Below are positions 3,118 through 28,614 of a DNA stretch of 46,116 nucleotides, piece by piece (within the stretch, counting starts at the first letter, position 1; each line of letters begins with the position of its first letter). A program made the translations under genes and the position numbers. The notes under the pieces were generated by a model. The model made no database searches. It worked only from the letters and a program-made list of their open reading frames with translations, and had not been told where the DNA came from. The DNA is from an uncultured Bacilli bacterium. Lineage in GTDB: Bacteria > Bacillota_I > Bacilli_A > RF39 > UBA660. The stretch is from assembly GCA_944363915.1 (NCBI GenBank), contig CALVVR010000007.1, positions 1 through 46,116 on the forward strand, in the 5' to 3' direction.

Positions 3118-3289
3118 CAAACTAAAGCTTGCCACTATAGGACAAACCAAAGTAAAAGGAACGAGTATAAATGTATAAAATAAAACGAGCGAAATTCTCA
3201 CCTATTCTATTCAAGGGGGAATGAGGGAGAACACAAAAATTACAAATAACAAAAAAAAGCAATAATAGAAAAAGTAAGAATAACTGATT

Positions 3290-3344
3290 CCACGTACAAA
3301 GTGTGTGGAGCCATGCACGGCTTTTAAGCGGTGCGTTGTTATGG
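3290..3344 (+). other. GC-rich structured segment between VR and TR
   Basis: A GC-rich island in AT-rich DNA that folds strongly by eye. CCACGTAC (3290-3297) pairs with GTGTGTGG (3301-3308) across AAA, with two G-T wobbles. GCAC-G-GCTT then pairs with AAGC-G-GTGC (about 3315-3334) in an adjacent hairpin. It lies just upstream of the template-repeat promoter. It might be the terminator or stem-loop of the adhesin transcript, a homing-associated structure, or a relic of a deleted element. I cannot assign it. Confidence 0.45.
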
Positions 3345-3358
3345 TGTGTTTTAAAAAA

Positions 3359-3367
3359 TGGTATAAT
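3359..3367 (+). promoter_or_regulatory. Extended -10 promoter of the template-repeat RNA
   Basis: TGGTATAAT, an extended -10 (TG-N-TATAAT), lies about 30 nt before the template repeat. There is no good -35; TTGTTA at 3336-3341 is 20 bp away. The predicted start is near 3374, so the transcript would begin just upstream of the repeat. Confidence 0.55.
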
Positions 3368-3373
3368 TTGTTA

Positions 3374-3628
3374 ATATAAATTATACAAGGTGAAAGGTCA
3401 TAACGCGAACTTCCCTAATTCCAGCAATTCCTGGTTCAAACAGGGTGGCAACTATAGCAATGGTGCTAATGCAGGCGTGTTCAACTTCAACAACAATGGC
3501 AATGCGAATTCCAACAATTCCGTCCGTACCGTCGTCTGTGTTCGCTGGACTATACTATTCGAGTGCTTTAAGATATGATTCAAGGATTATATAAAAGTTT
3601 ATAATATAGAGACCTGAATCCTTTTATA
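3374..3628 (+). ncRNA. Putative DGR template-repeat RNA (TR at 3399-3548)
   Basis: The 150-nt TR (3399-3548) reads, in the VR frame, as an Asn-rich peptide with AAC/AAT codons at the positions that vary in the VR, and landmarks FPNS, NSWFKQGG, GVFNFNNN and VVCVR. This adenine-loaded pattern is the hallmark of DGR templates, where adenines are mutagenised during reverse transcription. A promoter at 3359 and a hairpin with a T-rich tail at 3577-3627 would give an RNA of about 250 nt. A short reading frame through it (3390-3578) lacks a convincing start and is best seen as template, not gene. No RT or Avd gene lies within the window, so the partner enzyme must act in trans, lie just outside, or be lost. 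Confidence 0.78.
3577..3627 (+). terminator. Terminator-like hairpin after the TR
   Basis: GATTCAAGG (3577-3585) pairs with CCTGAATC (3613-3620) with one bulged A. An alternative pairing joins ATAAAAG (3591-3597) and CTTTTAT (3621-3627). A T-rich stretch follows. Confidence 0.5.
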
Positions 3629-3715
3629 CAATATGTATAAAAAAATATAAATAGATAATTTTTGATGAGTAGCAAAATGGTGAAAATCAGAAATTATATT
3701 TGCAGTATCTTATGG

Positions 3716-3817
3716 CTCTTTGTCAAATAGTGTTGGTGGAACCAAAAACTAATGATGGTAATGAATAAGGATGGTCAAATCGAAAGATTTGACCTTTCTT
3801 TAATTATATTTATAAAT
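3716..3817. repeat. Dispersed ~100-bp hairpin repeat, copy 1
   Basis: Begins CTCTTTGT, then ATAGTGTTGGTGGA and AAAAACTAA, then a perfect hairpin GGTCAAATC-GAAA-GATTTGACC (3773-3794) followed by a T-rich tail and TTTATAAATA. The same order of blocks recurs at 3979-4085 and 14621-14724. The 9-bp stem with a GAAA loop and following T's could act as a terminator. Confidence 0.6.
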
Positions 3818-3978
3818 ACCGAAATATAGGCAAGGTGTATTTTGCATTTGCATAAAACTATAATGGTTATTTTAATAATAACTACATCAAATTAGAACGA
3901 TACTTGGCATATTTCTTTTAAACTTAATTTAAAATAAAAATGGGCTTAGTAAAGCAAAAGTGAAAAAATCTTTTTTAT

Positions 3979-4085
3979 CTCTTTGTTCAATAGGGTTGAT
4001 GAATCTAAAAACTAGTTATAATAAATAATTACTAAAAGAGGACAAAATGAAATGTTTTATCTCTTTTAATTATCTTTATGAATAT
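3979..4085. repeat. Dispersed ~100-bp hairpin repeat, copy 2
   Basis: Shares CTCTTTGTTCAATAGGGTTG, AAAAACTA and the distal TTTAAT..TTTATGAATA with copy 1. The hairpin sequence has changed, but pairing is kept: AAAAGAG..ACAAAA opposes TGTTTT..CTCTTTT around a TGAAA loop. The upstream flank (3930-3985) resembles 82-130 at the window start. Confidence 0.5.
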
Positions 4086-4330
4086 AAGCAATAAATATAA
4101 TTTTAGTGTTAAATGATAAAATCACGATAACCAAAAGTGATTCTTTTGATACATTTAATGAGATTATTAAATTTTCAGTTACATCATTATTTAAATTATA
4201 TTAATTAGGTTAAAGAAGAACTTGTTGAAAGTTCTTTCATATTTACAGGAATAGATTTTTACCTAAAAATAATAATTTTAGTAAATAAAAATACATTTTA
4301 TCTTTAACATAAAAAATTTTGTTAACAAAA

Positions 4331-4352
4331 AAGATACTTTTTCAAGTATCTT
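4331..4352 (-). terminator. Rho-independent terminator of prsA
   Basis: A perfect 9-bp stem, AAGATACTT/AAGTATCTT, with a 4-nt loop. On the minus strand it is followed by a T run. It overlaps the prsA stop codon. Confidence 0.85.
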
Positions 4353-5325
4353 ATTGAATTTGATTTAATGTAGCTTCATAGTTGTTTTTAATAATATCAT
4401 CGTGAATAACCATGTTATATTTTTCTCTTAAACCGGCCCAATAAATGATTGTAGCATCATTCTCACTTAATATTTCATCAACTAAATTATCCAAGATAGT
4501 TTCTTTTACTTCTTCTAATGCTGGTTTTTCTTTTTGGCTAACTTTATAAATTATATGATAACCAAATTCAGTTTCAACTGGTTCAGTTGTGAATTTTCCG
4601 ACTTCTAAATCACGAGCAGCTTCCCAAAATTCTTCAGCTAAGTTACTATCACTATTGATATTTTCCAATAAGCCACCTTCACTAGCAGTTCCAGTGTCAT
4701 CTGATTGTTCTTTAGCAATGTTGATAAATTCTTCTTCTAAATTATCACTATTTTGTAATGTTTCAATTATTTTAGTAGCTTCTTCTAAAGCTTTTTGTTT
4801 AGCTTCTGCTTTTTCAGTAGAGTTCATGTCATCATCAACATCTGGAATAATTAAAATATGTCTTACAGAACTATCACCAAAAATATTATTATCATAATAT
4901 TCTTGAATTTCTTCATCAGTAACAACATCAGTTCTTATATATTGTTCTAAAACTAAATTTTGACGATAACTATTTTCAAAATCTCTTAATAGTTGTTCAC
5001 CTGTATAATTATTGCTTGCTAAAAATTGATTCCAACTACTTCCATAATAAGCAGCCATTGAATTATATTCACTTTGTGCTCTTTCTTTCGCTTCCTCAGC
5101 TAACTCATCAGTAATTTCTTGATCGGTAATATAATTACTAACTAAATTAATTAAGGCGCTAGTCCCATAATTTTCTTTTAATTCATCAAAAAATTCTTCA
5201 GCGGTAAATTGTTTACCATTTAATTCAACCACAATTTGTTGCCCATTTTGTAGTTCTGGCACTTTACCACAACCGGAAACTAAAAGTGGTACACACAATA
5301 GAAGTAATAAATATTTCTTTTTCAT
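4351..5325 (-). CDS. prsA: PrsA-like foldase lipoprotein (parvulin peptidyl-prolyl isomerase)
   Basis: 324 aa. A lipoprotein signal peptide with lipobox LVSGC places Cys19 at the mature N-terminus, anchored on the outer face of the membrane. A SurA/PrsA-like N-terminal helical region runs to about 150. A parvulin domain (about 155-275) opens with VRHILI and contains the conserved GGLLENINSDSNLAEEF and FGYHIIYK blocks. PrsA catalyses prolyl isomerisation and folding of secreted proteins after Sec translocation, including penicillin-binding proteins. That fits the PBP gene downstream and the many secreted proteins here. It stands alone with its own promoter and terminator. Length is close to the roughly 290-320 aa usual for PrsA. 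Confidence 0.9.
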   Translation of the reverse strand: MKKKYLLLLLCVPLLVSGCGKVPELQNGQQIVVELNGKQFTAEEFFDELKENYGTSALINLVSNYITDQEITDELAEEAKERAQSEYNSMAAYYGSSWNQFLASNNYTGEQLLRDFENSYRQNLVLEQYIRTDVVTDEEIQEYYDNNIFGDSSVRHILIIPDVDDDMNSTEKAEAKQKALEEATKIIETLQNSDNLEEEFINIAKEQSDDTGTASEGGLLENINSDSNLAEEFWEAARDLEVGKFTTEPVETEFGYHIIYKVSQKEKPALEEVKETILDNLVDEILSENDATIIYWAGLREKYNMVIHDDIIKNNYEATLNQIQ

Positions 5326-5361
5326 AAATCTTTAATCCTTTCCTTTATTACACGCAATCTA

Positions 5362-5390
5362 ATTATAACAAAAAAGCTTAAAAAAAACAA
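5362..5390 (-). promoter_or_regulatory. Promoter of prsA
   Basis: On the minus strand TTGTTT (5385-5390) and TATAAT (5362-5367) are 17 bp apart, about 37 nt before the ATG. Confidence 0.6.
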
Positions 5391-5467
5391 TATTTTTTCA
5401 TTATCTATCACAAAACTTTCAAATTTCCATACAATAATGTGAAAAGACAAAAAGGAGGATGATTTAT

Positions 5468-5554
5468 ATGTGTTGTAACAATGGTATATCTGGAGCTGCT
5501 ATCGTTTTAGTGCTTTTTATTCTTTTAATAATTATACTTGGAGCTTATATTTAA
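5468..5554 (+). CDS. 28-aa Cys-containing single-span membrane micro-protein
   Basis: Starts MCCNNG, then a hydrophobic span of about 20 residues (AAIVLVLFILLIIILGAY) to the end. Layout resembles the YjcZ/SscA-type tiny proteins of Bacillota: short polar Cys/Gly head and one transmembrane helix. The ATG at 5468 is chosen because the strong AGGAGG (5453-5458) sits 9 nt upstream; the in-frame ATG at 5459 abuts the ribosome site. It is followed 18 nt later by a similar gene. Function is unknown. The strong ribosome site and paired paralogue-like layout argue that it is real. Confidence 0.6.
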   Translation: MCCNNGISGAAIVLVLFILLIIILGAYI

Positions 5555-5572
5555 GTTAAAGGAGTAATAAAT

Positions 5573-5683
5573 ATGAATTGTGAAACATGTAATAAGACAT
5601 GTGACCGTGGCAATATTAATTATCTTATCATAATTGTTTTGTACATTTTATTAGCTATTATTTTAGGGGCATGTCTATTTTAA
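5573..5683 (+). CDS. 36-aa Cys-rich single-span membrane micro-protein
   Basis: Begins MNCETCNKTCDRGN with three cysteines in the head, followed by a hydrophobic span from about residue 17 to the end containing another Cys (ILGACLF). Ribosome site AAAGGAG lies 8 nt upstream of the ATG. It ends in a terminator whose stem starts inside the stop codon. It has the same layout as the gene before it, suggesting a pair acting together, perhaps as a metal-binding or redox membrane peptide. This is inference; no function is recognised. Confidence 0.6.
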   Translation: MNCETCNKTCDRGNINYLIIIVLYILLAIILGACLF

Positions 5684-5706
5684 AGAGGAAGTTTCCTCTT
5701 TTTATT
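5682..5706 (+). terminator. Terminator of the micro-protein pair
   Basis: AAAGAGG / CCTCTTT stem, loop AAGTTT, followed by a T-rich tail. Confidence 0.85.
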
Positions 5707-5729
5707 TTATGAAAGTTTACAAAAATATC

Positions 5730-5758
5730 TTTACAAAAAAAAAGAAAAATAGTAAAAT
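5730..5758 (+). promoter_or_regulatory. Promoter of the mraZ operon
   Basis: TTTACA (5730-5735) and TAAAAT (5753-5758) are exactly 17 bp apart. The start would fall near 5765, immediately before the MraZ operator. Confidence 0.75.
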
Positions 5759-16457: not shown

Positions 16458-16481
16458 ATTAAAAGAAAGAAGGTATTATTG

Positions 16482-17798
16482 ATGAAAAAAAATAAAACAG
16501 TTTATATAGCAATGTCTGCTGATGTCATTCACAGTGGACATATTAATGTCATTGAAGAAGGAGCAAAATATGGTGATGTAATAATTGGTTTATTGACTGA
16601 TGAAGCTATTGCTACTTATAAAAGATTGCCAATTTTAGATTATGAAACACGGAAAAAAATATTTGAAAATATTAAAAATGTTAGTAAAGTAGTAGAACAA
16701 AATACATTGGATTATACAGATAACTTAAAGAAATTAAAGCCAGATTATGTTGTTCATGGTGATGATTGGAAACAAGGCGTTCAGACTTTAATTAGAGAAA
16801 AAGTAATTGAAGTTTTAAAAGAATGGGGTGGCAAATTGATCGAAGTTCCATACACTAAAGGAATTTCTAGTACTGATTTAGCTAGTCAATATCGCTTTTT
16901 GGAAAATACCCCAGACAATAGACGATCAAAATTAAAAAGATTATTAAAAGTAAAACCATATATTAGATTAATTGATACATCAAATGGTTTGACAGGTTTA
17001 ATTGCTGAAAATGTTAAAATGGAAGATGAAAAAACCGCAACTACTAAAGAATTCGATGCAATGTGGGTTAGTAGTTTATGTGATTCCACTTTTAAAGGCA
17101 AACCAGATATTGAATTAGTAGATTTGACTAGTAGATTAAATACAATTAATGAAATCATGGAAGTAACTACTAAGCCAATCATTTTAGATGGTGATACAGG
17201 GGGTAAGATTGAACACTTTGCTTATAATGTTAAAACATTAGAAAGAATGGGTGTGTCAGCTATTATTATCGAAGATAAAACGGGATTGAAGAAAAATTCT
17301 TTATTTGGAACAGAAGTAAAACAAGAGTTAGATGATCCAGAGCATTTTGCTGCTAAAATCAGAGCTGGAAAACAAGCACAAGTTACTAGAGATTTTATGA
17401 TTTTTGCTCGTCTTGAAAGCTTAATTGCTGGCAAAGGGATTGATGATGCTTTAATGCGTGCTAAAATTTATATCGAAGCTGGTGCTGATGGCATTATGAT
17501 TCATAGTAAAGAAAAAGATGGACAAGAGATCTTTGAATTTATGAAAGAATTTAGAAAGTTTTCTAAAGATATTCCTATAGTTGTTGTACCTACTACGTAT
17601 AATCAATTTACAGAAGAAGAATTATATGAAAAAGGAGCTAACATTATAATCCACGCTAATCACTTATTAAGAAGTGCTTATCCGGCAATGGTTGATACTG
17701 CCAAAAGCATTTTAGAACATGGCCGTAGCAAAGAAGCTAGTGAAAAAAATTGTTTACCAATTAAAGAAATTCTTACTTTGATTCCTGGAGGTAAATAA
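16482..17798 (+). CDS. aepX: Bifunctional cytidylyltransferase / phosphoenolpyruvate mutase (Fom1-like)
   Basis: 438 aa. Residues 1-135 form a nucleotidyltransferase domain with H17-S-G-H20 and ISSTD at 128-132, as in glycerol-3-phosphate/TagD-type enzymes. Residues about 150-438 are PEP mutase with the diagnostic EDKx5NS motif (E264-D-K..N272-S273), DGDTGG and an isocitrate-lyase-like barrel. It isomerises PEP to phosphonopyruvate, forming the C-P bond. This domain order is that of Fom1, whose N-terminal half puts CMP on 2-hydroxyethylphosphonate; here it could do that or make CDP-glycerol. ATG 16482 has AAGAAGG upstream; an adjacent TTG in front is not needed. It is the first gene of the operon, 1 nt before the decarboxylase. 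Confidence 0.9.
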
Positions 17799-17799
17799 A

Positions 17800-18909
17800 A
17801 TGATTAATACTAAAGAATTTTATGACTATTTAGTAAAAAAAGGATTAGACTTCTTTGTAGGAGTTCCTGATTCACTTTTAAAAAATTTATGTGCTTGTAT
17901 TAAAGAAAATAGCGATTCTAAACATAATATTATTACTGCTAATGAAGGTAACGCTGTTGCTATAGCATGTGGTTATCACATGTCAAGCAATAAATATGGT
18001 GTAGTTTATATGCAAAATTCAGGATTAGGTAATACCGTTAATCCACTACTATCATTAGCTGACGAAGAAGTATACAATATACCAATGTTGTTAATAATCG
18101 GATGGCGTGGTGAACCTGGTAAAAAGGATGAACCGCAACATGTAAAACAGGGAAAATTAACTTTGCCATTATTAGAGACAATGGGAATTGAATATATGAT
18201 TTTAAATAGCAATTATCAAGAACAAATTGATAAATGTTATAATTATATGAAAGAAACTAATAAACCAATTGCTGTTGTTGTTAAAAAAGATACTTTTGAT
18301 AATTATACAATAACTAAAGAAAAGAACAACTATACATTAACAAGAGAAGAAGCTTTGGATACAGTTTTAAAAGAACTTAACGATGATGATTTTATTGTAT
18401 CTACTACTGGTAAAACTTCAAGAGAAATTTTTGAATTAAGAGAAAAAAATCATCAAGGACATGCTAATGATTTTTTAACTGTTGGTTCTATGGGTCATAC
18501 AGCATCGATTGCTTTTGGTATGTGTTTAAATACTGATAAAAATATCTATTGCATTGATGGTGATGGATCATTTATTATGCATATGGGTAGTTTTGCTGTA
18601 ATTGCCCAAAATCAATGCGATAATTTTAAATATATTTTGATTAACAATGGAGCCCACGAATCAGTTGGTGGACAACCAACTGTTGGATTTAATATTAAAA
18701 TTGATGAAATTTTAAAAGCTGTTGGCTTTAAAAATGTTTATTTAGCAACTGATAAAGAAGAGATTAAAAAGGCTATTTCTAAAATGAAAAACAATAGTAT
18801 GGAAGCTTTAGTAATCTACACTAAACAAGGTTCAAGAGAAGATTTAGGTAGACCTACTACAACACCAGTTGAAAATAAAGTTGCCTTAATGGAAAAAATT
18901 AGTAAATAG
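17800..18909 (+). CDS. aepY: Phosphonopyruvate decarboxylase (TPP-dependent)
   Basis: 369 aa, normal for the family. The first half binds the pyrimidine of thiamine diphosphate (TANEGNAVAIACGYH with the activating Glu). The second half has the TPP/Mg motif G254-D-G-S257 ending in the NN of ILINNGAHESVGG. It converts phosphonopyruvate to phosphonoacetaldehyde and CO2, pulling the unfavourable PEP mutase step forward. The gene is spaced 1 nt after aepX and 9 nt before the fused reductase gene, so all three are co-translated or nearly so. The pyrimidine/pyrophosphate half order distinguishes it from sulfopyruvate decarboxylase subunits, which are split. Confidence 0.93.
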   Translation: MINTKEFYDYLVKKGLDFFVGVPDSLLKNLCACIKENSDSKHNIITANEGNAVAIACGYHMSSNKYGVVYMQNSGLGNTVNPLLSLADEEVYNIPMLLIIGWRGEPGKKDEPQHVKQGKLTLPLLETMGIEYMILNSNYQEQIDKCYNYMKETNKPIAVVVKKDTFDNYTITKEKNNYTLTREEALDTVLKELNDDDFIVSTTGKTSREIFELREKNHQGHANDFLTVGSMGHTASIAFGMCLNTDKNIYCIDGDGSFIMHMGSFAVIAQNQCDNFKYILINNGAHESVGGQPTVGFNIKIDEILKAVGFKNVYLATDKEEIKKAISKMKNNSMEALVIYTKQGSREDLGRPTTTPVENKVALMEKISK

Positions 18910-18918
18910 GGGGTATTT

Positions 18919-20736
18919 ATGAAAGCTGTTATATTTAATTCCGGTTTAGGAAAGAGAATGGGCGATTTGACCAAAAACAACCATAAGTCAATGGTTAGAT
19001 TAAGTAATAATGAGACGATTTTTGAAAGACAAATTCGTCTTTTAAGTGAATGTGGAATTAAAGATTTTTTAATTACTACTGGTCCTTTTGAGGAACAATT
19101 AAAAGCAGTTGCAAGTCTTTTCCCGGATTTAAATTTTACATTTGTTAGAAATCCAATTTATGATAAAACAAATTATATCTATTCTATGTATTTAGCAAGA
19201 CAATATTTTGATGATGATGTAATTATGCTTCATGGTGATTTGGTTTTTGATCGTAAGTTAATGCATGATATTCTAGCTGATCCAAGAAGTAATTTGGCTA
19301 CAGTTAATCATAATAAATCTTTACCAGAAAAAGATTTTAAAGCAAGGATAATTAACGGTAAAATAGTTGAGGTTGGCATTAATATTTTTGATAATAATTG
19401 CTTTGCTTTTCAGCCTTGTTACAAGTTAAGTAAAGAAAATATTCAAAAATGGTTAGCTAATGTTTCTTCTTTTATCGATAGAGGAATTGATGGTGTTTAT
19501 GCCGAAAATGCTTTTAACGAAATATCGGATAGTATACCAATCGAAGAATTTTCCTATGAAAATTATTATATAGATGAAGTAGATACGCCTGAAGATTTAA
19601 AAAGAGTTAGTGAAGAAATAAGACCATTTGATTTTAGAGAACAAAATATTATTTTTTCAAATGAAGAGATGGATATTGTTGATTTTGTAAAAAAAAACGC
19701 TACTAAGCCGTTGATTGTATCAACAGAAATATTTAATCAAAGTAATTTAAAAAAATTATTAGATGATAATAATATTAATTATGTATTGTTTAGTGATTTT
19801 TCACCTAATCCTAAGTATGAAGAATTGGTTTTAGGTATATCTAAATTTAAAAAAAATAATTGTGATTATGTTGTCTCTTATGGGGGAGGAAGTGCTATTG
19901 ATATTGCTAAATGTATTAAATTATATGGAAAAGCAGAAGAATGTGATAATTATTTAGAAAGTGAAAAGAAATTTAATTTAATTAAACATTTAGCTATTCC
20001 AACGACAGCTGGAACTGGTAGTGAATCAACCAGATTTGCTGTTGTTTATAAAGATGGTATTAAAAATTCAATTACTCATGATAGTATTATTCCTAATGAT
20101 GTTATTTTAAATTCTTCTTTATTAAAAACATTACCTGATTATCAAAAAAAATCAACGATGCTAGATGCTTTGTGTCAAGCTATTGAATCATATTGGTCAG
20201 TCAACTCAACTGTAGAAAGTAAAAAATACGCTAAAGAAGCAATGATGCTTATTTTGGAAAACATGTTTAAATATTTAGAAAATGATGAGATGGCTATGCG
20301 AGAAATTATGAAAGCTTCTAATTTAGCAGGGCGTGCAATCAATATCTCACAAACAACAGCAGCTCATGCGATGAGTTATAAAATAACTTCTTTATATGGA
20401 ACAAGCCATGGTCATGCTGTTGCTTTATGTCTACCTTATATTTGGGAGTATATGATCAATAATTTAGATAGATGTATTGATCCAAGAGGAAAAGATTATA
20501 TTGTTGATGTTATGCATGATTTAGCTGACATATTTGAATGTGAAAATGTAAAAGAAGCAATAGATAAATTAAAGAACATAATAAATGAACTAAATTTATC
20601 AATTCCACAAGTAAACGCTGTCGAATTAGATAAATTAGTTAATTCTATTAATCAAGAAAGATTAAAAAACAATCCAATTAAATTAAACAAGGAAAATATT
20701 GAAGAAATTTATTTGAAATCGTTAAAAAGTAAGTAG
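18919..20736 (+). CDS. Fusion: nucleotidyltransferase + phosphonoacetaldehyde reductase (Fe-ADH type)
   Basis: 605 aa. Residues 1 to about 235 are an NTP-transferase (LicC/PntC-like) with GLGKRMGDLTKNNHKSM at 9-25, LHGDLVFD and a C-terminal DEVDTPEDL. Residues about 250-605 are an iron-type alcohol dehydrogenase with GGGSAIDIAK, PTTAGTGSES, LDALCQAIESYWS and SHGHAVAL. The Asp and two distal His metal ligands appear present, but the usual His after DAL is Gln. In this operon the reductase should turn phosphonoacetaldehyde into 2-hydroxyethylphosphonate, and the cytidylyltransferase should activate it to CMP-HEP. PntC, by comparison, fuses a cytidylyltransferase to a transaminase. Exact nucleotide and substrate are inferred. 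Confidence 0.82.
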   Translation: MKAVIFNSGLGKRMGDLTKNNHKSMVRLSNNETIFERQIRLLSECGIKDFLITTGPFEEQLKAVASLFPDLNFTFVRNPIYDKTNYIYSMYLARQYFDDDVIMLHGDLVFDRKLMHDILADPRSNLATVNHNKSLPEKDFKARIINGKIVEVGINIFDNNCFAFQPCYKLSKENIQKWLANVSSFIDRGIDGVYAENAFNEISDSIPIEEFSYENYYIDEVDTPEDLKRVSEEIRPFDFREQNIIFSNEEMDIVDFVKKNATKPLIVSTEIFNQSNLKKLLDDNNINYVLFSDFSPNPKYEELVLGISKFKKNNCDYVVSYGGGSAIDIAKCIKLYGKAEECDNYLESEKKFNLIKHLAIPTTAGTGSESTRFAVVYKDGIKNSITHDSIIPNDVILNSSLLKTLPDYQKKSTMLDALCQAIESYWSVNSTVESKKYAKEAMMLILENMFKYLENDEMAMREIMKASNLAGRAINISQTTAAHAMSYKITSLYGTSHGHAVALCLPYIWEYMINNLDRCIDPRGKDYIVDVMHDLADIFECENVKEAIDKLKNIINELNLSIPQVNAVELDKLVNSINQERLKNNPIKLNKENIEEIYLKSLKSK

Positions 20737-20751
20737 AAAGTAGGGAGTATT

Positions 20752-23700
20752 ATGGCAGCCAAGAAATATGCCGTTTCGGTAATTGTGCCAGTATATAATG
20801 TTGAAAAATATATTAAGGAGTGCTTAGATTCTTTAGTTAATCAAACTTTAAAAAATATTGAAATAATAGTTGTTAATGATGGTAGTCCTGATAATTCACA
20901 AGTTATAATCGATGAATATGTTAAAAAATATCCTGATAAAGTTAAATCGTTTATTAAAAAAAATGGTGGATTATCGGACGCTAGAAATTACGGCATTAAC
21001 AAAGCTAGTGGTGAATATGTAGCATTTGTTGATAGTGATGATTTTGTTGATAAAAATATGTGCAAATTAATGTATAGACGAGCTAAGGCTTATGATTGTG
21101 ATATAGTTGTTTCTCCATATTATAGATACACAATTGGTAGTTTGAAGAAAACAATTGGTGGTAAAATGAATATCAATGCTAATGTTTTTCACGGAAAAGA
21201 ATACATGATTCGTAATGATATTATGATTGTTTGTAATAAAATTTATCGTTTAGATTTTATTAAATCTTTTCCTTTTAAAACAAATACATGGTATGAAGAT
21301 GTGGCATGGACCCCAATTGTTATGTCCTATGCTACAAAAGTTAGTTATATTAGTAAAGTGTTCTATCATTACATTATTAGAGAAAATTCAATCACTCAAA
21401 GTAAAACTGATGTAAGAACAATTCAGGGAATAGATTCTGTTTTTCATTCAATTAATAATTGTAATCCCAAAGAAAAAGATGTAATTGAATATTTTGGTTT
21501 TAGAAGATTATTATTTGAAACTAGAATGCGACTACCGTATCGAGAAAAATATATCGAAGCAATTAAAAAATTGTTGCCAACTTTAGAAAAAAATAAATAT
21601 TTAATTGAAAATCAATTTTATTATGATAAATTTAAAGAATTAAAAAAAGGTATATATATAATTCCTAGAAATTATTATTATGCTAATTTTGAAGATTCCA
21701 AAGAATATAATAGTGAAATTATTGAACAATGGGAACAATTTCTTTCTTGTGGCATTGGTAAGTTTGAATGTTTAAATATTAGCAATTCCAAAATTAATAA
21801 TAAATTAATTAATAAAGCTTATAAAGAAAAAAAATATAAAATAGTAAATGATTACTTTTTGTTAAATAGAATTTATGAAACAGGTGGTATAGCTTTAAAC
21901 TATAATGTTAAGTTTGAAAAGTTTATTTCGGAATGTTTGATAAATGAATGCTTTTTTTGTTATGATGAAAATGGAGACATTAGCACCGATATTTGGGGAG
22001 CCGTGGCAAATTCTTCCGTAATAAAAGATATAATTAATATTTTCGAGGCAAAACTACAAAATGGGTATATGGAAGATGATTTACTTAAAATAAGCATTAT
22101 TAGTTATTTTGAAGATAAAAAGAAATACAAATTAGATGGATATACTAAAAAAATGGATTATAATATTTCATTTTATAAATATAGTTATTTTTATTCAATA
22201 AAATCTTTAAAAAAGGAATCAAAGCTAAAAAAATTATTAAAATTATTTCTGCATAAAGCTATTCAAATTAAATTTATCAAAAATATATTATTATTTTTGA
22301 TATCGACAAAAAAACTATTAATGTCGAAAAATTTTAAATGTTTTAAATATGCTAAATATTATGAAAAAAAAGAACTTGTTGATAATTTGTTTCTTTTTGA
22401 ATCTTTTTATGGTCGTGGATTATTATCTAATCCTTACGCTTTATTTATTGAACTTACTAAACGAAAAGATTTCAGTAATAAACAAATAGTTTGGGTTTTG
22501 GACAAAAAGAAAAATCATAAAGAATTAATAAGGAAATTCAAGAAGAAATATTCTAATGTTTCTTTTGTTGAGCGAGGAACACTAGCTTATTACAAATATT
22601 TAGCCACTGCTAAATATTTGATAAATGATGTTACTTTTTCATTTGAATATATAAAAAAAGAAAGTCAAGTTTATATAAATACTTGGCATAGTATAACTGT
22701 TAAAACTTTAGGATATGATATTCCAGGCAATCCGCTTAATGCTAAAAATGTTATAAGGAACTTTTTCGCGACAGATTATTTTTTATCACCTAATGATTTT
22801 ATGGGAAAAGAAATTTTTGGTGAATCACATAAAATGAATAATATTTATCCAGGTACAGTGATTCAAGAAGGATTTCCAAGAGATGATTTAACTTATCTAT
22901 ATACTAGAAACGAAGTTATTAGTATAATGAAAGATGCTGGGGTAAGTGTCGATGAAAATAAAAAAATTATTATTTATGCCCCAACTTGGCGAGGAGATAA
23001 ACTTGGAAAACCTTCTGATGATATTAATGAGTATAATCGTTTATTAGAGGAAATCACTAAAAATATTGATAATAAAAAATATCAAGTTTTATTAAGAGTT
23101 CATCAGTTAGTATATCAACATATTGATAAAAAAAATGGTTTATTAAAAAAAATTGTACCTAGCACAATTGATGCAAATATAATGTTTGCAGCAACTGATT
23201 TGCTCATTACTGATTATTCGAGTATCTTTTTTGATTATTTACCAACTGGTAAACCAATTTTATTTTATTCGCCTGATGTTGAAGAATATAATAAATATCG
23301 TGGTAATTATTTCTATGCTGACGATTTGCCTTCTCATACTTCAACTACTGTTGAAGAATTGTGTTATGATATTAATCATATTGACGAAATAACAAAACAA
23401 TATAAGAAGAAATATCAATATTTTGTTAAAACTTATTGCGGGTATGAAAACGGTAAGGACAGTAAAAGAATAGTTGATGGTATATTTTATAATAAGAAAA
23501 TGAATTCTTATCAGTTGTCTCATAACAAGAAAAAAGTTCTTTTATATATTAAAAATGTTGAATCAATTGATAATTATGCGGAAAGATTAATTAGAATTTT
23601 GGATCCTAATAAATATGATATTACTTTCTTTGTAGATGATAAGCACAAAGAAGATTATTATAAATTGTTAAGTAAATATTTAGATTATAATGTTAGAGTT

Positions 23701-24090
23701 TTTGGTATGAGTCATTCAAAATATTATAGTTTTACGCTTTCAGAGTTCTATCTTATTAAATCGTTAAATTATTATAATGGATTAACAGACAAAAAACGAA
23801 ATATTATTAACAATCATTTCAAAAGAGAATGGATTAGAAATTTTGGTGATTGTCAATTCGATTTGATTATTAATTTATCAGGTGATGAATTATATTTTAA
23901 TTATTTGTTTTTAAGTGGTAATAAAAATGCAATAAAAATTATTAGAAATGCTTATTCGAATAATAAAAACAAAAGACAACCTAAAGTTTGTCATTCGATG
24001 AAAGTTTATTGTGAATATGATAAGACTTTTATTACTTTTTCATCTTTATTAGATGTTTTAATTGAAATTGGTGAATCATTGGATGAATAA
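20752..24090 (+). CDS. Multidomain GT2 glycosyltransferase / CDP-glycerol glycerophosphotransferase
   Basis: 1112 aa. Residues 1 to about 230 are a GT2 domain (VSVIVPVYNVEKYI, VNDGSPDNS, VDSDDF, WYEDV). Residues about 320-440 resemble GT32 capsular transferases (RIYETGGIALNYN at 373-385), but the DxD after GG is replaced by NYN, so this part is probably inactive. Residues about 530-920 are a Glyphos_transf domain (TagB/TagF type) with W645-H646, YAPTWRG and D821-Y-S-S824. A GT-B-like tail of about 180 residues follows. It would add sugars and polymerise glycerol phosphate on lipid-linked teichoic acid at the inner membrane face. No membrane helix is evident. It overlaps licD by 8 nt. Confidence 0.85.
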   Translation: MAAKKYAVSVIVPVYNVEKYIKECLDSLVNQTLKNIEIIVVNDGSPDNSQVIIDEYVKKYPDKVKSFIKKNGGLSDARNYGINKASGEYVAFVDSDDFVDKNMCKLMYRRAKAYDCDIVVSPYYRYTIGSLKKTIGGKMNINANVFHGKEYMIRNDIMIVCNKIYRLDFIKSFPFKTNTWYEDVAWTPIVMSYATKVSYISKVFYHYIIRENSITQSKTDVRTIQGIDSVFHSINNCNPKEKDVIEYFGFRRLLFETRMRLPYREKYIEAIKKLLPTLEKNKYLIENQFYYDKFKELKKGIYIIPRNYYYANFEDSKEYNSEIIEQWEQFLSCGIGKFECLNISNSKINNKLINKAYKEKKYKIVNDYFLLNRIYETGGIALNYNVKFEKFISECLINECFFCYDENGDISTDIWGAVANSSVIKDIINIFEAKLQNGYMEDDLLKISIISYFEDKKKYKLDGYTKKMDYNISFYKYSYFYSIKSLKKESKLKKLLKLFLHKAIQIKFIKNILLFLISTKKLLMSKNFKCFKYAKYYEKKELVDNLFLFESFYGRGLLSNPYALFIELTKRKDFSNKQIVWVLDKKKNHKELIRKFKKKYSNVSFVERGTLAYYKYLATAKYLINDVTFSFEYIKKESQVYINTWHSITVKTLGYDIPGNPLNAKNVIRNFFATDYFLSPNDFMGKEIFGESHKMNNIYPGTVIQEGFPRDDLTYLYTRNEVISIMKDAGVSVDENKKIIIYAPTWRGDKLGKPSDDINEYNRLLEEITKNIDNKKYQVLLRVHQLVYQHIDKKNGLLKKIVPSTIDANIMFAATDLLITDYSSIFFDYLPTGKPILFYSPDVEEYNKYRGNYFYADDLPSHTSTTVEELCYDINHIDEITKQYKKKYQYFVKTYCGYENGKDSKRIVDGIFYNKKMNSYQLSHNKKKVLLYIKNVESIDNYAERLIRILDPNKYDITFFVDDKHKEDYYKLLSKYLDYNVRVFGMSHSKYYSFTLSEFYLIKSLNYYNGLTDKKRNIINNHFKREWIRNFGDCQFDLIINLSGDELYFNYLFLSGNKNAIKIIRNAYSNNKNKRQPKVCHSMKVYCEYDKTFITFSSLLDVLIEIGESLDE

Positions 24091-24868
24091 AGAATTAAGA
24101 AAATTACAACTAATTGAATTAGGTATTTTAAAAGAAGTAGATCGAATTTGTAAAAAGTATCATATTACTTATTATATGGCTGAAGGGAGTTTATTAGGGG
24201 CAATGCGTCACAATGGTTTTATTCCTTGGGATGATGATTTAGATATTGCAATGTTAAGAAAAGATTACGAAAGATTTCTTCAAGTTGCTCCTAAAGAAAT
24301 AAGTAAAGATTATGAGATACAATATTCTACAACTATAACTAAATACTGGTCACCGTTTATCAAGGTTAGATATTTAGATAATCGTGAATTTGCTCAAACT
24401 CATATTGCTCATTTAACTGATCATAATGGTCCTTTATTAGATATTTTCCCGATCGATAATGTTCCTAGAATGGATAGTTTTAGGCAAAAAATACAAGCCA
24501 AAAAAATTAAATTATATCGTGGCATGTTAGGTTTTAAGTTATATCGTAAGCCAAAAAACATTAAAACTTTTATAGTTTTTCTTATGTCTAAATTTTATTC
24601 AATTAAAGGATTACATAAAAGATTGGATAAAACATTTAAAAAATATAATAATAAAAATAACAAATATTTAGTCAATTTAGCTAGTTATTATAACTATAAA
24701 AAACAAACTTTTCCAGTTAAATATTATGGTAAACCAAGATATGTTAAATTTGAGGATATGATGGTTCCAGTACCAAAAGAAGCTGAAAAAGTTTTAAATA
24801 AAATCTATGGTGATTATACTGTTTTACCGCCAGTAGAAAAAAGGGTTATCAAACATCATTTTGATTAG
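24083..24868 (+). CDS. licD: LicD-family phospho(no)transferase
   Basis: 261 aa. The LicD core YYMAEGSLLGAMRHNGFIPWDDDLDIAM is present, with the metal-binding D50-D-D-L-D54. LicD transfers a phospho-group from a CMP/CDP-activated donor onto a teichoic acid or glycan sugar: phosphocholine in pneumococcus. Here no choline genes are nearby, while a CMP-phosphonate pathway lies immediately upstream, so hydroxyethylphosphonate is the expected donor group. The ATG at 24083 overlaps the previous stop by 8 nt, with GGTG 9 nt upstream. An earlier TTG (24062) is possible. Confidence 0.88.
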   Translation: MNKELRKLQLIELGILKEVDRICKKYHITYYMAEGSLLGAMRHNGFIPWDDDLDIAMLRKDYERFLQVAPKEISKDYEIQYSTTITKYWSPFIKVRYLDNREFAQTHIAHLTDHNGPLLDIFPIDNVPRMDSFRQKIQAKKIKLYRGMLGFKLYRKPKNIKTFIVFLMSKFYSIKGLHKRLDKTFKKYNNKNNKYLVNLASYYNYKKQTFPVKYYGKPRYVKFEDMMVPVPKEAEKVLNKIYGDYTVLPPVEKRVIKHHFD

Positions 24869-24879
24869 TAGGTGATAAT

Positions 24880-25980
24880 ATGTTTTTAATCGATATATTT
24901 AAATTTTTATTAAATATATTATATTTTCCTTTTAAGTTATTAAAAAGACAAAATAAAATTTTATTTTTAAGTAGACAGACTAATTCTTTATCACTTGAAT
25001 ATAAAATGATTATTGATGCTTTAAAAGAAAAAGATAATCAGGTTAAAATAAAAGTAATTACTAAAAAACTAGAAAAAAATTTAGCTAGTTTAATTAGTAA
25101 TTTCTTTTTGTTGTTTGAACAGATGTATCATTTAGCTACATCTAAAATAGCAATTACTGATGGCTATTCTATTCCAATAAGTATATTAAAACATGATAAA
25201 AAATTAATAATTATTCAAATGTGGCATGCGAATGGAATTATAAAGAAAATAGGCTTACAAACTTTAGATAGTCGTGGTAAAAAAGGTAAAAAATTAGCAT
25301 TGAAGATGAATATGCACCAAAATTATGATTATGTAATTTCATCTTCAAACGAAACATCAAAAGTTTTTATGAAAGCTTTTAAAGTTAGTAAAAAGCAAAT
25401 ATTAAATTATGGAACTCCTATGCTAGATTATATTTATGATAAAAAAAATGATAAGAGTGAAATAATTAAGGAAAAATATAATCTTGGTAATAAAAAAATA
25501 GTTTTATATTTACCAACTTATCGTAAATCACAAATAAATTATGATGAAATTGTTAATAATTTTGATTTTAATAAGTATCAATTGGTTATTAAAAATCATC
25601 CGGTTGATCATAATAGAATAGAAAATGGTAATATTATTATTATTGATAAATATATAGCAGAAGATTTAATATCGATTGCTGATTATGTTATAAGTGATTA
25701 TTCTAATGTCGTTTTCGAATCGTTATTATGTCATAAAAAAACATATTGTTACATATATGATTATGACTTATATAAAAAACAATTTGGTTTTAATATTGAT
25801 TTAAAAAAAGAATTTAGTAAATATTCGTTTACTAAATTTGCTGATTTATTAAAAGCAATTGAAGAAAATAAATATGATTTTGCTTTTGCTAATAGTTTCT
25901 TAAATAAATATGTTTTTAATTTTAATGGTAAAAGTACTGACAAAATTGTCGATTTTATCATAAGAAAAATAAATGTATAA
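24880..25980 (+). CDS. CDP-glycerol glycerophosphotransferase family protein (TagB/TagF-like)
   Basis: 366 aa. An amphipathic N-terminal segment (FKFLLNILYFPFKLL) for membrane association precedes a Glyphos_transf domain: IIIQMWHANG (catalytic His region), YLPTYRKS, NHPVD and DYVISDYSNVVFE. Such enzymes prime (TagB) or polymerise (TagF) glycerol phosphate from CDP-glycerol onto the undecaprenyl-linked disaccharide. With the larger enzyme upstream, one may be primase and the other polymerase; which is which cannot be read from sequence. It follows licD by 11 nt with AGGTGATAAT. Confidence 0.85.
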   Translation: MFLIDIFKFLLNILYFPFKLLKRQNKILFLSRQTNSLSLEYKMIIDALKEKDNQVKIKVITKKLEKNLASLISNFFLLFEQMYHLATSKIAITDGYSIPISILKHDKKLIIIQMWHANGIIKKIGLQTLDSRGKKGKKLALKMNMHQNYDYVISSSNETSKVFMKAFKVSKKQILNYGTPMLDYIYDKKNDKSEIIKEKYNLGNKKIVLYLPTYRKSQINYDEIVNNFDFNKYQLVIKNHPVDHNRIENGNIIIIDKYIAEDLISIADYVISDYSNVVFESLLCHKKTYCYIYDYDLYKKQFGFNIDLKKEFSKYSFTKFADLLKAIEENKYDFAFANSFLNKYVFNFNGKSTDKIVDFIIRKINV

Positions 25981-26029: not shown

Positions 26030-26815
26030 ATGAAAAAATTCTTTCAAGATATAAAAAAATATTTTAAATATATATTGTATTCAACGAAATCTAATTTAAA
26101 AACTGAAGTGGCCAATTCTTATTTAAATTGGTTGTGGTGGATATTAGATCCTTTATGTTTTATGTTAGTATATACTTTTATTGTTCAAATTGTATTTAAA
26201 ACGAATGAACAATATTTTCCGGTTTTTGTTTTAATTGGGTTAACTGCTTGGAATTTTTTTAATACCAACACTAATTCTAGTGTGAAATTAATTGCTAATA
26301 ATAAATCTATTGTAACTAAGGTATATATTCCTAAATATGTTTTAACTTTAGTCAAAATGTTTACAAATTTATTTAAAATGATGATTTCCTGGGGATTGAT
26401 ATTAATCATGATGTTGATATTTAAAGTGCCGTATACTTTATATATGTTACAATTTTTCCCTGTTTTAATTGTTTTATTTGTTTTATCATTTGGTATTTCA
26501 ACAATACTTATGCATTTTGGTGTGTTTGTCGAAGATTTAAGTAATGTTATGAATATTTTCTTGAAATTAGTATTTTATATGTCGGGAGTTTTTTATGCCA
26601 TATCGACAAGAGTTCCTGCTCCTTTCAATCGCATTTTAGTAAATTTAAATCCAATTGCTCTAATAATAGATTCTTTTAGAAAAGCTTTTTTAGGAGCTGA
26701 TTTAGTTAATTATCGAATGTTAAGTATTTGGTTAGTTATTGGGCTAATTTTATCATTTATTGGTATAAAAACAATTCAAAAATATGAAAATAGTTATGCG
26801 AAGGTGACAAAATGA
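26030..26815 (+). CDS. tagG: Teichoic acid ABC exporter, permease (TagG-like)
   Basis: 261 aa, six predicted membrane segments, ABC-2 family. NSYLNWLWWILDPL is the typical beginning of TagG/Wzm permeases, followed by VFVLIGLTAWNFF and YMSGVFY. It forms the channel that flips lipid-linked teichoic acid across the membrane. Its last codons overlap tagH by 4 nt (ATGA), the usual arrangement for the pair. Confidence 0.9.
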   Translation: MKKFFQDIKKYFKYILYSTKSNLKTEVANSYLNWLWWILDPLCFMLVYTFIVQIVFKTNEQYFPVFVLIGLTAWNFFNTNTNSSVKLIANNKSIVTKVYIPKYVLTLVKMFTNLFKMMISWGLILIMMLIFKVPYTLYMLQFFPVLIVLFVLSFGISTILMHFGVFVEDLSNVMNIFLKLVFYMSGVFYAISTRVPAPFNRILVNLNPIALIIDSFRKAFLGADLVNYRMLSIWLVIGLILSFIGIKTIQKYENSYAKVTK

Positions 26816-27546
26816 GTAAATATGCAATTACAATTAAAGATTTACATATAAGTTATCGAACTTTAAAAGGCTTTTCGATAAAAAAATCATTATTAAAGTT
26901 AAAAATGAGTAAATCTGAAGTGTTTGAAGCGGTTAGAGGAGTTTCTTTTAATGTTGAAAAAGGTAAAATTTTAGGTATTATTGGAAAAAATGGTTCTGGT
27001 AAATCAACATTACTTAGAAGTATTGCAGGAATATTCTCACCAGATTCTGGGACGATAGACCTACACGGCAACTCAGTATCTTTATTATCGATTGGTGTTG
27101 GGTTTCAAAACAAATTATCTGGTTATGAAAATATTTTCTTATCAGGTATGTTGTTAGGCTTTAGTAAGGAACAGATTGAAGCAAAAATAAATGATATTAT
27201 CGAATTTTCTGAATTAGGGGAGTTTATTTATAAACCTGTTTCTAGTTATTCTAGTGGTATGTATTCTAAATTAGCTTTTTCTATTACCGCTATATTAGAA
27301 ACTGACATTATGTTAATCGATGAAGTTTTTAGTGTTGGTGATATTAAATTTAAACAAAAAAGTTATAACAAAATGAAAGAATTAATTTCTGATGAAAATA
27401 GAACAGTTATAATAGTATCGCATAGTTTGGGAACATTAAAAGAATTATGTGATGAAGTGTTATGGTTGCACGATGGAAAAATTAAACAAATTGGAGATCC
27501 TGAAGAAGTTATCAAAGCTTATGAAGAGTTTATGAAAACTGATTAA
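26812..27546 (+). CDS. tagH: Teichoic acid ABC exporter, ATP-binding protein (TagH-like)
   Basis: 244 aa. Walker A GKNGSGKST (about 62-70), a GVGFQNKLSGYENI region typical of polysaccharide/teichoic exporters, signature YSSGMYSKLAF, Walker B IMLIDEVFSVGD and switch His (VSHSL). It lacks the long extracytoplasmic extension of B. subtilis TagH, being a minimal ATPase as in Wzt without a carbohydrate-binding domain. It powers export by TagG. It shares a two-way terminator with tagO. Confidence 0.9.
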   Translation: MSKYAITIKDLHISYRTLKGFSIKKSLLKLKMSKSEVFEAVRGVSFNVEKGKILGIIGKNGSGKSTLLRSIAGIFSPDSGTIDLHGNSVSLLSIGVGFQNKLSGYENIFLSGMLLGFSKEQIEAKINDIIEFSELGEFIYKPVSSYSSGMYSKLAFSITAILETDIMLIDEVFSVGDIKFKQKSYNKMKELISDENRTVIIVSHSLGTLKELCDEVLWLHDGKIKQIGDPEEVIKAYEEFMKTD

Positions 27547-27583
27547 AAAACTGATAAATAGAATTAACTATTAATCAGTTTTT
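27546..27583. terminator. Bidirectional terminator between tagH and tagO
   Basis: Perfect 10-bp inverted repeat AAAAACTGAT (27546-27555) and ATCAGTTTTT (27574-27583). A and T runs on the two sides let it serve both converging genes. Confidence 0.85.
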
Positions 27584-28614
27584 GTTTTTTTATGTTCAAT
27601 TATTACATCAGTTTTAACAATAAAAATAATTACAATTAACAACAATATTCCATATAATAGGTAACCTAACTGTCTATCAATTAAAACATAAACAATAGAA
27701 GTGAAAGCAAACAAGGCATCGATTAAACAAATAATAATAACCGTTTTTTTATGTGAAAAGTTCATTTTTAATAATTGATGATGAATATGAAATTTATCTG
27801 GTTTAGTAATACTTTCATTTTTTAAAGTTCTTCTAATGATGGCAAAGATTGTATCTAAAACTGGTATTGCGATAATCATAAAAGGTATTACTAAAGATGT
27901 CATAGTGACATTTTTAAATCCTAATAAAGCTATTATACTAATGATAAACCCTAGAAACATCGAACCAGAATCACCCATGAATATTTTAGCAGGATATTTA
28001 TTATGCATTAAAAATCCTAAACAAGATCCTAGCATGATGAAACATAACATAAAATCTAATCCGTGAGAGTTTCTAAATATAGCAATTGTACCAACTGTTA
28101 AAAAGAAGATACTACTTATTCCAGTAGCTAATCCATCTAATCCATCAATTAGATTCATACAATTAATAAAGATTAATATAAACAAAATAGTTATAGGATA
28201 GGCAAATATTCCAAAATTGACATAAAAACCGAAAGCACTAATACTAGATAATAATATTTGACCGTGGAATACAACTACTAAAGTAGCCGCTAATTGTCCT
28301 AATAATTTAATTTTAGCATTTAATGGTTTAATATCATCAATCATTCCTGTTATAACAATTATAAAACTACCAATTAAAATTGATGTTATTAAATCATTTT
28401 GCTTGCCAAATACTAGATAACCAAATAAGAATCCGGCAAATATTGCTAAGCCACCTAACCGAGGAATAGGGACTTTATGAACTTTTCTAGCATTTGGTAT
28501 ATCCATTGCTCCGACGTGATTAGCTATTTTTTTAACTAATGGTACTAAAATATAGACAAATAGAAAACAAGTAACAATAACTAAAATGATTTTAATAAAT
28601 AATTCTGTTGACAT
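27571..28614 (-). CDS. tagO: TagO/WecA-type undecaprenyl-phosphate GlcNAc-1-phosphate transferase
   Basis: 347 aa with about 10-11 membrane helices. Conserved MraY/WecA motifs are HKVPIPRLGG, GMIDDIKPL (Asp pair), NLIDGLDGLATG, MGDSGSMFLGF and the cytosolic loop with KFHIHHQLL. It transfers GlcNAc-1-phosphate from UDP-GlcNAc to undecaprenyl phosphate, the committed step of wall teichoic acid synthesis. It converges on tagGH and supplies the lipid primer for the operon. Ribosome site GAGGTG precedes the ATG on the minus strand. Confidence 0.93.
   Translation of the reverse strand: MSTELFIKIILVIVTCFLFVYILVPLVKKIANHVGAMDIPNARKVHKVPIPRLGGLAIFAGFLFGYLVFGKQNDLITSILIGSFIIVITGMIDDIKPLNAKIKLLGQLAATLVVVFHGQILLSSISAFGFYVNFGIFAYPITILFILIFINCMNLIDGLDGLATGISSIFFLTVGTIAIFRNSHGLDFMLCFIMLGSCLGFLMHNKYPAKIFMGDSGSMFLGFIISIIALLGFKNVTMTSLVIPFMIIAIPVLDTIFAIIRRTLKNESITKPDKFHIHHQLLKMNFSHKKTVIIICLIDALFAFTSIVYVLIDRQLGYLLYGILLLIVIIFIVKTDVIIEHKKTKTD

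Follow-up and report, generated by a model that had tools for sequence, protein, structure and literature searches.

Introduction

Among the systems closest to the enzyme considered here is PntC-AEPT of Treponema denticola (Tde1415; PDB 6PD1/6PD2), in which an N-terminal cytidylyltransferase (CTase) of family PF12804 is fused to a phosphonate-finishing enzyme of the PEP mutase pathway, a PLP transaminase making the amine AEP. Glu104 and Glu196 of this PntC are located near the amine of AEP (PMC6697681). The same paper, an inventory of phosphonate CTases, names PEP mutase and AEP transaminase as fusion partners, and its text does not contain the term "dehydrogenase". Fom1 of Streptomyces wedmorensis, a 2-hydroxyethylphosphonate (HEP) cytidylyltransferase of family PF01467 joined to PEP mutase, belongs to fosfomycin synthesis, and the phosphocholine CTase LicC (PDB 1JYL) feeds LicD. 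The phosphonoacetaldehyde reductases PhpC and FomC (cd08182) are stand-alone enzymes from antibiotic clusters. BkTauF (PDB 6JKO) is a stand-alone group III alcohol dehydrogenase (ADH) that processes a two-carbon oxyanion aldehyde, a sulfonate. Its zinc ligands are Asp192, Gln196, His261 and His275, of which Gln196 was determined crystallographically, and 85% of the activity was regained with zinc versus 15% with iron (PMC6616044).

Here, a gene of an uncultured Bacilli bacterium from the gut is analyzed that combines a CTase with an Fe-type ADH. The window, i.e. the whole stretch of DNA under study, comprises 46,116 nucleotides. A previous sequence-only reading had compared the protein to PntC, described as a CTase coupled to an AEP transaminase in agreement with PMC6697681 and PDB 6PD2, and had proposed that HEP is made and activated on one polypeptide.

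Results

One reading frame codes for a CTase and an ADH

The fusion is encoded by a single uninterrupted reading frame (Table 1), which has its own ribosome-binding site (AGGGGG) and begins 9 nt after the preceding stop codon. Three Pfam domains were detected above their cut-offs, namely NTP_transf_3 (residues 3-122, E 1e-9), Fe-ADH (residues 245-398, E 3e-33) and ADH_Fe_C (residues 412-601, E 4e-27). AlphaFold2, supplied with 18 homologues, yielded a model of the whole fusion with a mean pLDDT of 91. Because a structure search with this model gave only ADH chains among the matches listed, the CTase half was folded alone (pLDDT 91) and searched separately. That a CTase is fused to an Fe-type ADH, as the sequence-only reading had stated, is confirmed by the uninterrupted frame, the Pfam domains and the occurrence of the same fusion in 11 further genomes. 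An assembly or sequencing artefact or a chance join can be ruled out, since 12 genomes carry the fusion. A literature search covering few subscription papers retrieved no prior report of a CTase-ADH fusion.

The fusion is the third gene of a tight operon, the first three genes of which are separated by only 1 and 9 nt. The two upstream genes, coding for PEP mutase and phosphonopyruvate decarboxylase, both exceed their NCBIfam cut-offs, which suggests that phosphonoacetaldehyde would be made next door. No transaminase was found at the locus; two class V aminotransferases are encoded on other contigs of the same genome, and it is possible that an AEP transaminase exists elsewhere in it. At positions 277-3114 (+) of the window, a 945-aa reading frame is located that has no Pfam match at E 1e-8.

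Table 1. Features of the locus, with positions in the window.
Feature	Position	Strand	Basis
Fom1-type CTase domain (residues 1-140) fused to PEP mutase (151-439)	16479..17798	+	TIGR02320 above cut-off; Fom1 CyTase 5x3d E 1.5e-52
Phosphonopyruvate decarboxylase, makes phosphonoacetaldehyde	17800..18909	+	TIGR03297, 460 bits vs cut-off 312.5
CTase-ADH fusion, 605 aa	18919..20736	+	Uninterrupted ORF; Pfam; 11 homologous fusions elsewhere; AlphaFold2
LicC/PntC-type CTase half, residues 1-238	18919..19632	+	NTP_transf_3; 6pd2 PntC best fold match; conserved residues
Codon of His105, aligned with PntC Glu104	19231..19233	+	Alignment; invariant in clade
Fe-type (group III) ADH half, residues 245-605, proposed phosphonoacetaldehyde reductase	19651..20733	+	Fe-ADH and ADH_Fe_C; BkTauF fold match
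D416-A-L-C-Q420, first two predicted metal ligands, Gln for usual His	20164..20178	+	Alignment
His483 and His497, predicted metal ligands flanking the clade signature Tyr487-Lys488	20365..20409	+	Alignment
Protein with GT2 and CDP-glycerol glycerophosphotransferase-type domain	20752..24090	+	Pfam
LicD phosphotransferase, candidate CMP-HEP user	24062..24868	+	LicD E 5e-46; fused to CTase-ADH in L005, L006, L112, L114
TarB-like glycerophosphotransferase-type protein	24880..25980	+	Profile matches incl. Pfam
ABC exporter pair (TagGH-like), for surface polymer	26030..27546	+	ABC2_membrane, ABC_tran
TagO/WecA-like transferase for the lipid carrier (glycosyl transferase family 4)	27571..28614	-	PF00953 E 1e-39

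The CTase half resembles PntC in its predicted fold and has a histidine in place of Glu104

The best fold match of the CTase half is PntC of T. denticola (6pd2; Z 30.1, 236 residues, 1.9 A), although the sequence identity of the two is only about 22%. Inositol-1-phosphate CTase (Z 25.6) and LicC (Z 25.3) also match; LicC has the same fold and logic but differs in its substrate, phosphocholine, and in its pocket motif, which reads DADN versus LHGD in the fusion. As in PntC, the nucleotidyltransferase domain PF12804 is accompanied by a GxGxR...K motif and metal-binding acids, and PEP mutase and surface-glycan transferases are encoded nearby. Arg13, Lys23, Asp107, Glu220 and Asp222 are conserved in fused-type CTases; in the fusion of the window, the residue preceding the motif Lys is a His, where a Pro is expected. 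Of the AEP-contacting pair of PntC, Glu196 is kept, whereas Glu104 corresponds to His105, which is invariant among all members examined except for one decayed copy. The CTase half is therefore not classed as an AEP-specific PntC. Judged from the alignment, His105 would agree with an alcohol, not an amine, as product of this locus.

The CTase half also gives weak matches to models of sugar nucleotidyltransferases. Neither the ranking of folds nor the context, however, favours the use of a sugar phosphate, which the sequence-only reading had named as evidence against its own proposal: PntC, inositol-1-phosphate CTase and LicC all outrank the sugar nucleotidyltransferases (Z <=24.1), and no sugar-phosphate genes are fused to the CTase in the 12 fusions. 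We regard a function as sugar-1-phosphate nucleotidyltransferase as extremely improbable.

The ADH half possesses a BkTauF-like metal site

The Fe-ADH and ADH_Fe_C domains, an Asp-(His/Gln)-His-His site and a GGGS nucleotide loop identify the ADH half as a group III ADH. The structure search matched it to group III ADHs, and the BkTauF sulfoacetaldehyde reductase (6jko) was one of the tied top matches with a Z-score of 44.9. Both proteins share a Trp, a Thr-Thr pair and a Phe/Tyr at matching places as well as the Asp-Gln-His-His site, for which the alignment gives Asp416, Gln420, His483 and His497 in the fusion. As far as their descriptions go, PhpC and FomC share the proposed reaction and the superfamily with the ADH half.

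The motif DALCQAIESYW, which the sequence-only reading had quoted because of the Gln at the usual His position, is present (D416, Q420). The detail, which in its view may affect the choice of metal, is real, and zinc is probably the metal of the ADH half, since the Gln-containing site of BkTauF prefers zinc over iron. The residue itself is ordinary, as it occurs in BkTauF and in 21 of the 34 ADHs of the clade, the other 13 having His; among the 12 fusions, 11 contain Gln and that of L007 contains His. A novel metal site or a defect can be ruled out on the basis of the zinc-binding Gln of BkTauF and the swapping of Gln and His in the clade. A better mark of the clade than Gln420 is Tyr487-Lys488 (Tyr in 34/34 and Lys in 30/34 sequences); His-Pro occupies this place in ordinary ADHs from the same genus, and BkTauF has a Pro instead of Lys488. 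As a guess, Lys488 may hold the phosphonate. Two ADHs of the clade (L105, L110) have a metal ligand replaced, a His by Ser and an Asp by Gly, and are perhaps inactive copies.

No second Fe-ADH match was found in the genome, so that the fusion contains the only one. Fe-ADHs are promiscuous, and the closest curated models, those of ErcA, PsrA and lactaldehyde reductase, all score below their own cut-offs (NCBIfam PsrA TIGR03405: 147 bits versus 423.7). The ADH half might thus be oxidative or process another aldehyde, in which case the locus would not end in HEP. This is very unlikely, because the ADH directly follows PEP mutase and decarboxylase, no catabolic gene is located downstream, the ADH occupies the place of the transaminase in AEP loci, and the Fom1-type domain of ADH loci contains the residues of the HEP enzyme (see below).

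The fusion occurs in three classes and its domains are re-sorted

A pattern scan of the genomes of 84,980 species and sampled whole-genome searches detected the fusion in 12 genomes (the window, L002-L007 and L111-L115), which belong to Bacilli, Clostridia and Coriobacteriia according to record titles and searched groups. L007 stems from a cultured organism, Adlercreutzia sp. ZJ304. The 11 other fusions are between 86 and under 50% identical to the one in the window. PEP mutase adjoins the fusion in all 12 genomes, and the decarboxylase was detected nearby in ten of them, the exceptions being L114 and L115. A quick ADH tree, several forks of which are poorly supported, requires two changes of fusion state.

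In several relatives, a feature missed in the sequence-only reading, the chain is extended further: CTase-ADH-GT2 (L111), CTase-ADH-LicD (L112), CTase-ADH-LicD-LicD (L114), CTase-ADH-LicD-GT2 (L005) and CTase-ADH-LicD-GT2-glycerophosphotransferase (L006; 1849 aa). The CTase of L043, and similarly that of L117, is located beside an ADH-glycerophosphotransferase, while in L044, L045, L118-L120 and L142 the CTase is joined to a Fom1-type CTase domain and PEP mutase (CTase-Fom1CT-PEP mutase), with ADH and decarboxylase as separate genes. L063-L065 contain an HEP-type operon without a fused-type CTase; the same genomes possess one elsewhere, beside a transporter. This exchange of partners among CTase, ADH, LicD, GT2, glycerophosphotransferase and PEP mutase argues that all of them are tied to one pathway. 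The extensions by LicD and glycerophosphotransferase additionally suggest attachment to the surface, and CMP-HEP may be handed over directly to the surface-glycan transferases.

In one order of Clostridia (345 genomes), 16 genomes contain both the CTase clade and PEP mutase, four only the CTase, five only PEP mutase and 320 neither (Fisher p 7e-20, a value that overstates independence because the genomes are related).

Several variants were observed besides. Adjoining the intact fusion of L114, a 1290-aa protein (1863-5732, -) comprises a decayed CTase-ADH copy, a glycerophosphotransferase and an MptE-like domain. In L122 (6276-7394, -) and L127 (3091-4209, -), the CTase is fused to a Fom1-type CTase without a PEP mutase domain; no PEP mutase was found in these two genomes, and the L122 gene adjoins a UDP-GlcNAc 2-epimerase and an APH-type kinase. 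In L134, a short-chain dehydrogenase (4974-5696, -) next to CTase-Fom1CT-PEP mutase takes the expected place of the Fe-ADH and is a possible alternative phosphonoacetaldehyde reductase. L126 (4496-6673, +) contains an AEP transaminase-like gene followed by an ADH of the clade, with no PEP mutase at the locus; this pair could convert AEP to HEP.

Two CTases are candidates for the synthesis of CMP-HEP

The sequence-only reading, which assigned the activation of HEP to a single polypeptide, had missed a second CTase next door, and there are consequently two candidate HEP-CTases. The neighbouring PEP mutase has the two-domain layout of Fom1, its CTase domain is 62% identical to the Fom1 CyTase, and HxGH (as HSGH), GISST and K48/D96 are all present. 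Both CTases of the window look intact; they belong to different families (PF01467 for Fom1, PF12804 for the fused CTase).

The PEP mutase of the window and 31 related ones were compared at positions 48 and 96 of the Fom1-type domain. K48 and D96, as in Fom1, were found in 26/26 ADH loci, versus D/N48 and N96 in 6/6 transaminase loci; the latter stem from few lineages, mainly one family, and the residue switch may partly reflect ancestry. It is possible that these residues switch the specificity between HEP and AEP, and K48/D96 in ADH loci would agree with an alcohol, not an amine, as product.

In Coriobacteriia (L007, L113, L115), the HxGH motif of the Fom1-type domain has turned into HEGI, and GISST is gone in many other loci. 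Domains without HxGH or GISST, which may be inactive, occur in L007, L113, L115, L044, L045, L063-L065, L118-L120, L133, L141 and L142. In contrast, the motifs of the fused-type CTase stay intact throughout, including the loci with a decayed Fom1-type domain. For this reason, we favour the fused-type CTase with moderate confidence as the constant CMP-HEP maker.

The nearest stand-alone relatives of the CTase half (L008-L022, 15 Clostridia and related loci) are 61-65% identical to it. The gene after them codes for a GlpT/PgtP-like MFS protein (organophosphate transporter) in 14/14 readable loci, and in 12 of the 15 genomes a PEP mutase above cut-off is absent. The CTase family may hence accept another substrate, and these loci may import phosphonates that are already complete and use them at the surface, or else handle a different phosphate.

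Could the two CTases of the window share the work, with the Fom1-type domain making CMP-HEP and the fused CTase activating another small phosphate (e.g. glycerol phosphate to CDP-glycerol), the ADH being fused only to keep the pathway together? Besides the intact, Fom1-like neighbour and the transporters adjoining the stand-alone CTases, the gene content of the genomes is in line with this division. No TagD was found in the genome of the window, which has only two PF01467 proteins (one with the Fom1-type domain, the other of the HIGH_NTase1 kind), or, besides the Fom1-type domain, in three genus mates (G002, G005, G011). Likewise, no IspD/TarI-type match was obtained in these four incomplete assemblies (72-92%), despite the two glycerophosphotransferase-type domains encoded at the locus of the window. 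On the other hand, true TagD above cut-off exists in genomes with a stand-alone CTase (G452, G454, G462, G465) and with the fusion (G469, G470, G616), which weakens the idea of the CTase as a simple TagD substitute. Moreover, in loci whose Fom1-type domain no longer has HxGH or GISST, the fused-type CTase is the sole intact one. The presence of this CTase also tracks PEP mutase. We consider a division of labour rather unlikely.

Discussion

The CTase-ADH fusion is probably a bifunctional enzyme of the phosphonyl-tailoring (Pnt) pathway, belonging to an alcohol branch in which it makes HEP and activates it to CMP-HEP. In this pathway, PEP mutase would generate phosphonopyruvate and the decarboxylase phosphonoacetaldehyde, two steps backed by curated family scores. 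The ADH half would then reduce phosphonoacetaldehyde with NAD(P)H to HEP, using a metal bound to Asp416, Gln420, His483 and His497, and the CTase half would convert HEP and CTP to CMP-HEP in the manner of PntC, with Mg2+ and with Lys23 and Arg13 in the chemistry. Enzymes of the LicD or glycerophosphotransferase type encoded in the operon may then pass the HEP of CMP-HEP to a surface glycan resembling teichoic acid, and the ABC pair would export this glycan. The fusion would thus couple the alcohol-making to the activating step, as PntC-AEPT does for the amine. The proposal that HEP is made and activated on one polypeptide, which we infer as did the sequence-only reading, is supported by the PntC-like fold, the upstream genes and the missing transaminase at the locus.

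CMP-HEP may also be the donor that the glycerophosphotransferase-type enzymes use, given that no TagD or IspD-type match was obtained in the incomplete assemblies of the window's genome and three genus mates. HEP has a free hydroxyl, which AEP lacks, and CMP-HEP could therefore be polymerised. In that case, HEP (C-P) units may be part of the backbone of a teichoic-acid-like polymer made by the locus, instead of forming its side groups. The missing TagD, IspD and TarI, the two glycerophosphotransferase-type domains and the relatives that fuse such a domain to ADH or CTase-ADH point in this direction; even so, we deem a HEP backbone improbable.

Our findings support reading the fusion as the HEP counterpart of PntC-AEPT, with both activities and the surface use predicted. 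If this holds true, PntC-AEPT would have an alcohol-making twin in the CTase-reductase fusion, whose gene could mark gut bacteria coated with HEP. The CTase-ADH-LicD-GT2 chains would identify, on one polypeptide, the enzymes that probably carry out the unsolved step of attachment. K48/D96 versus D/N48/N96 in the Fom1-type domain can be tested as a sequence criterion that would separate HEP from AEP loci.
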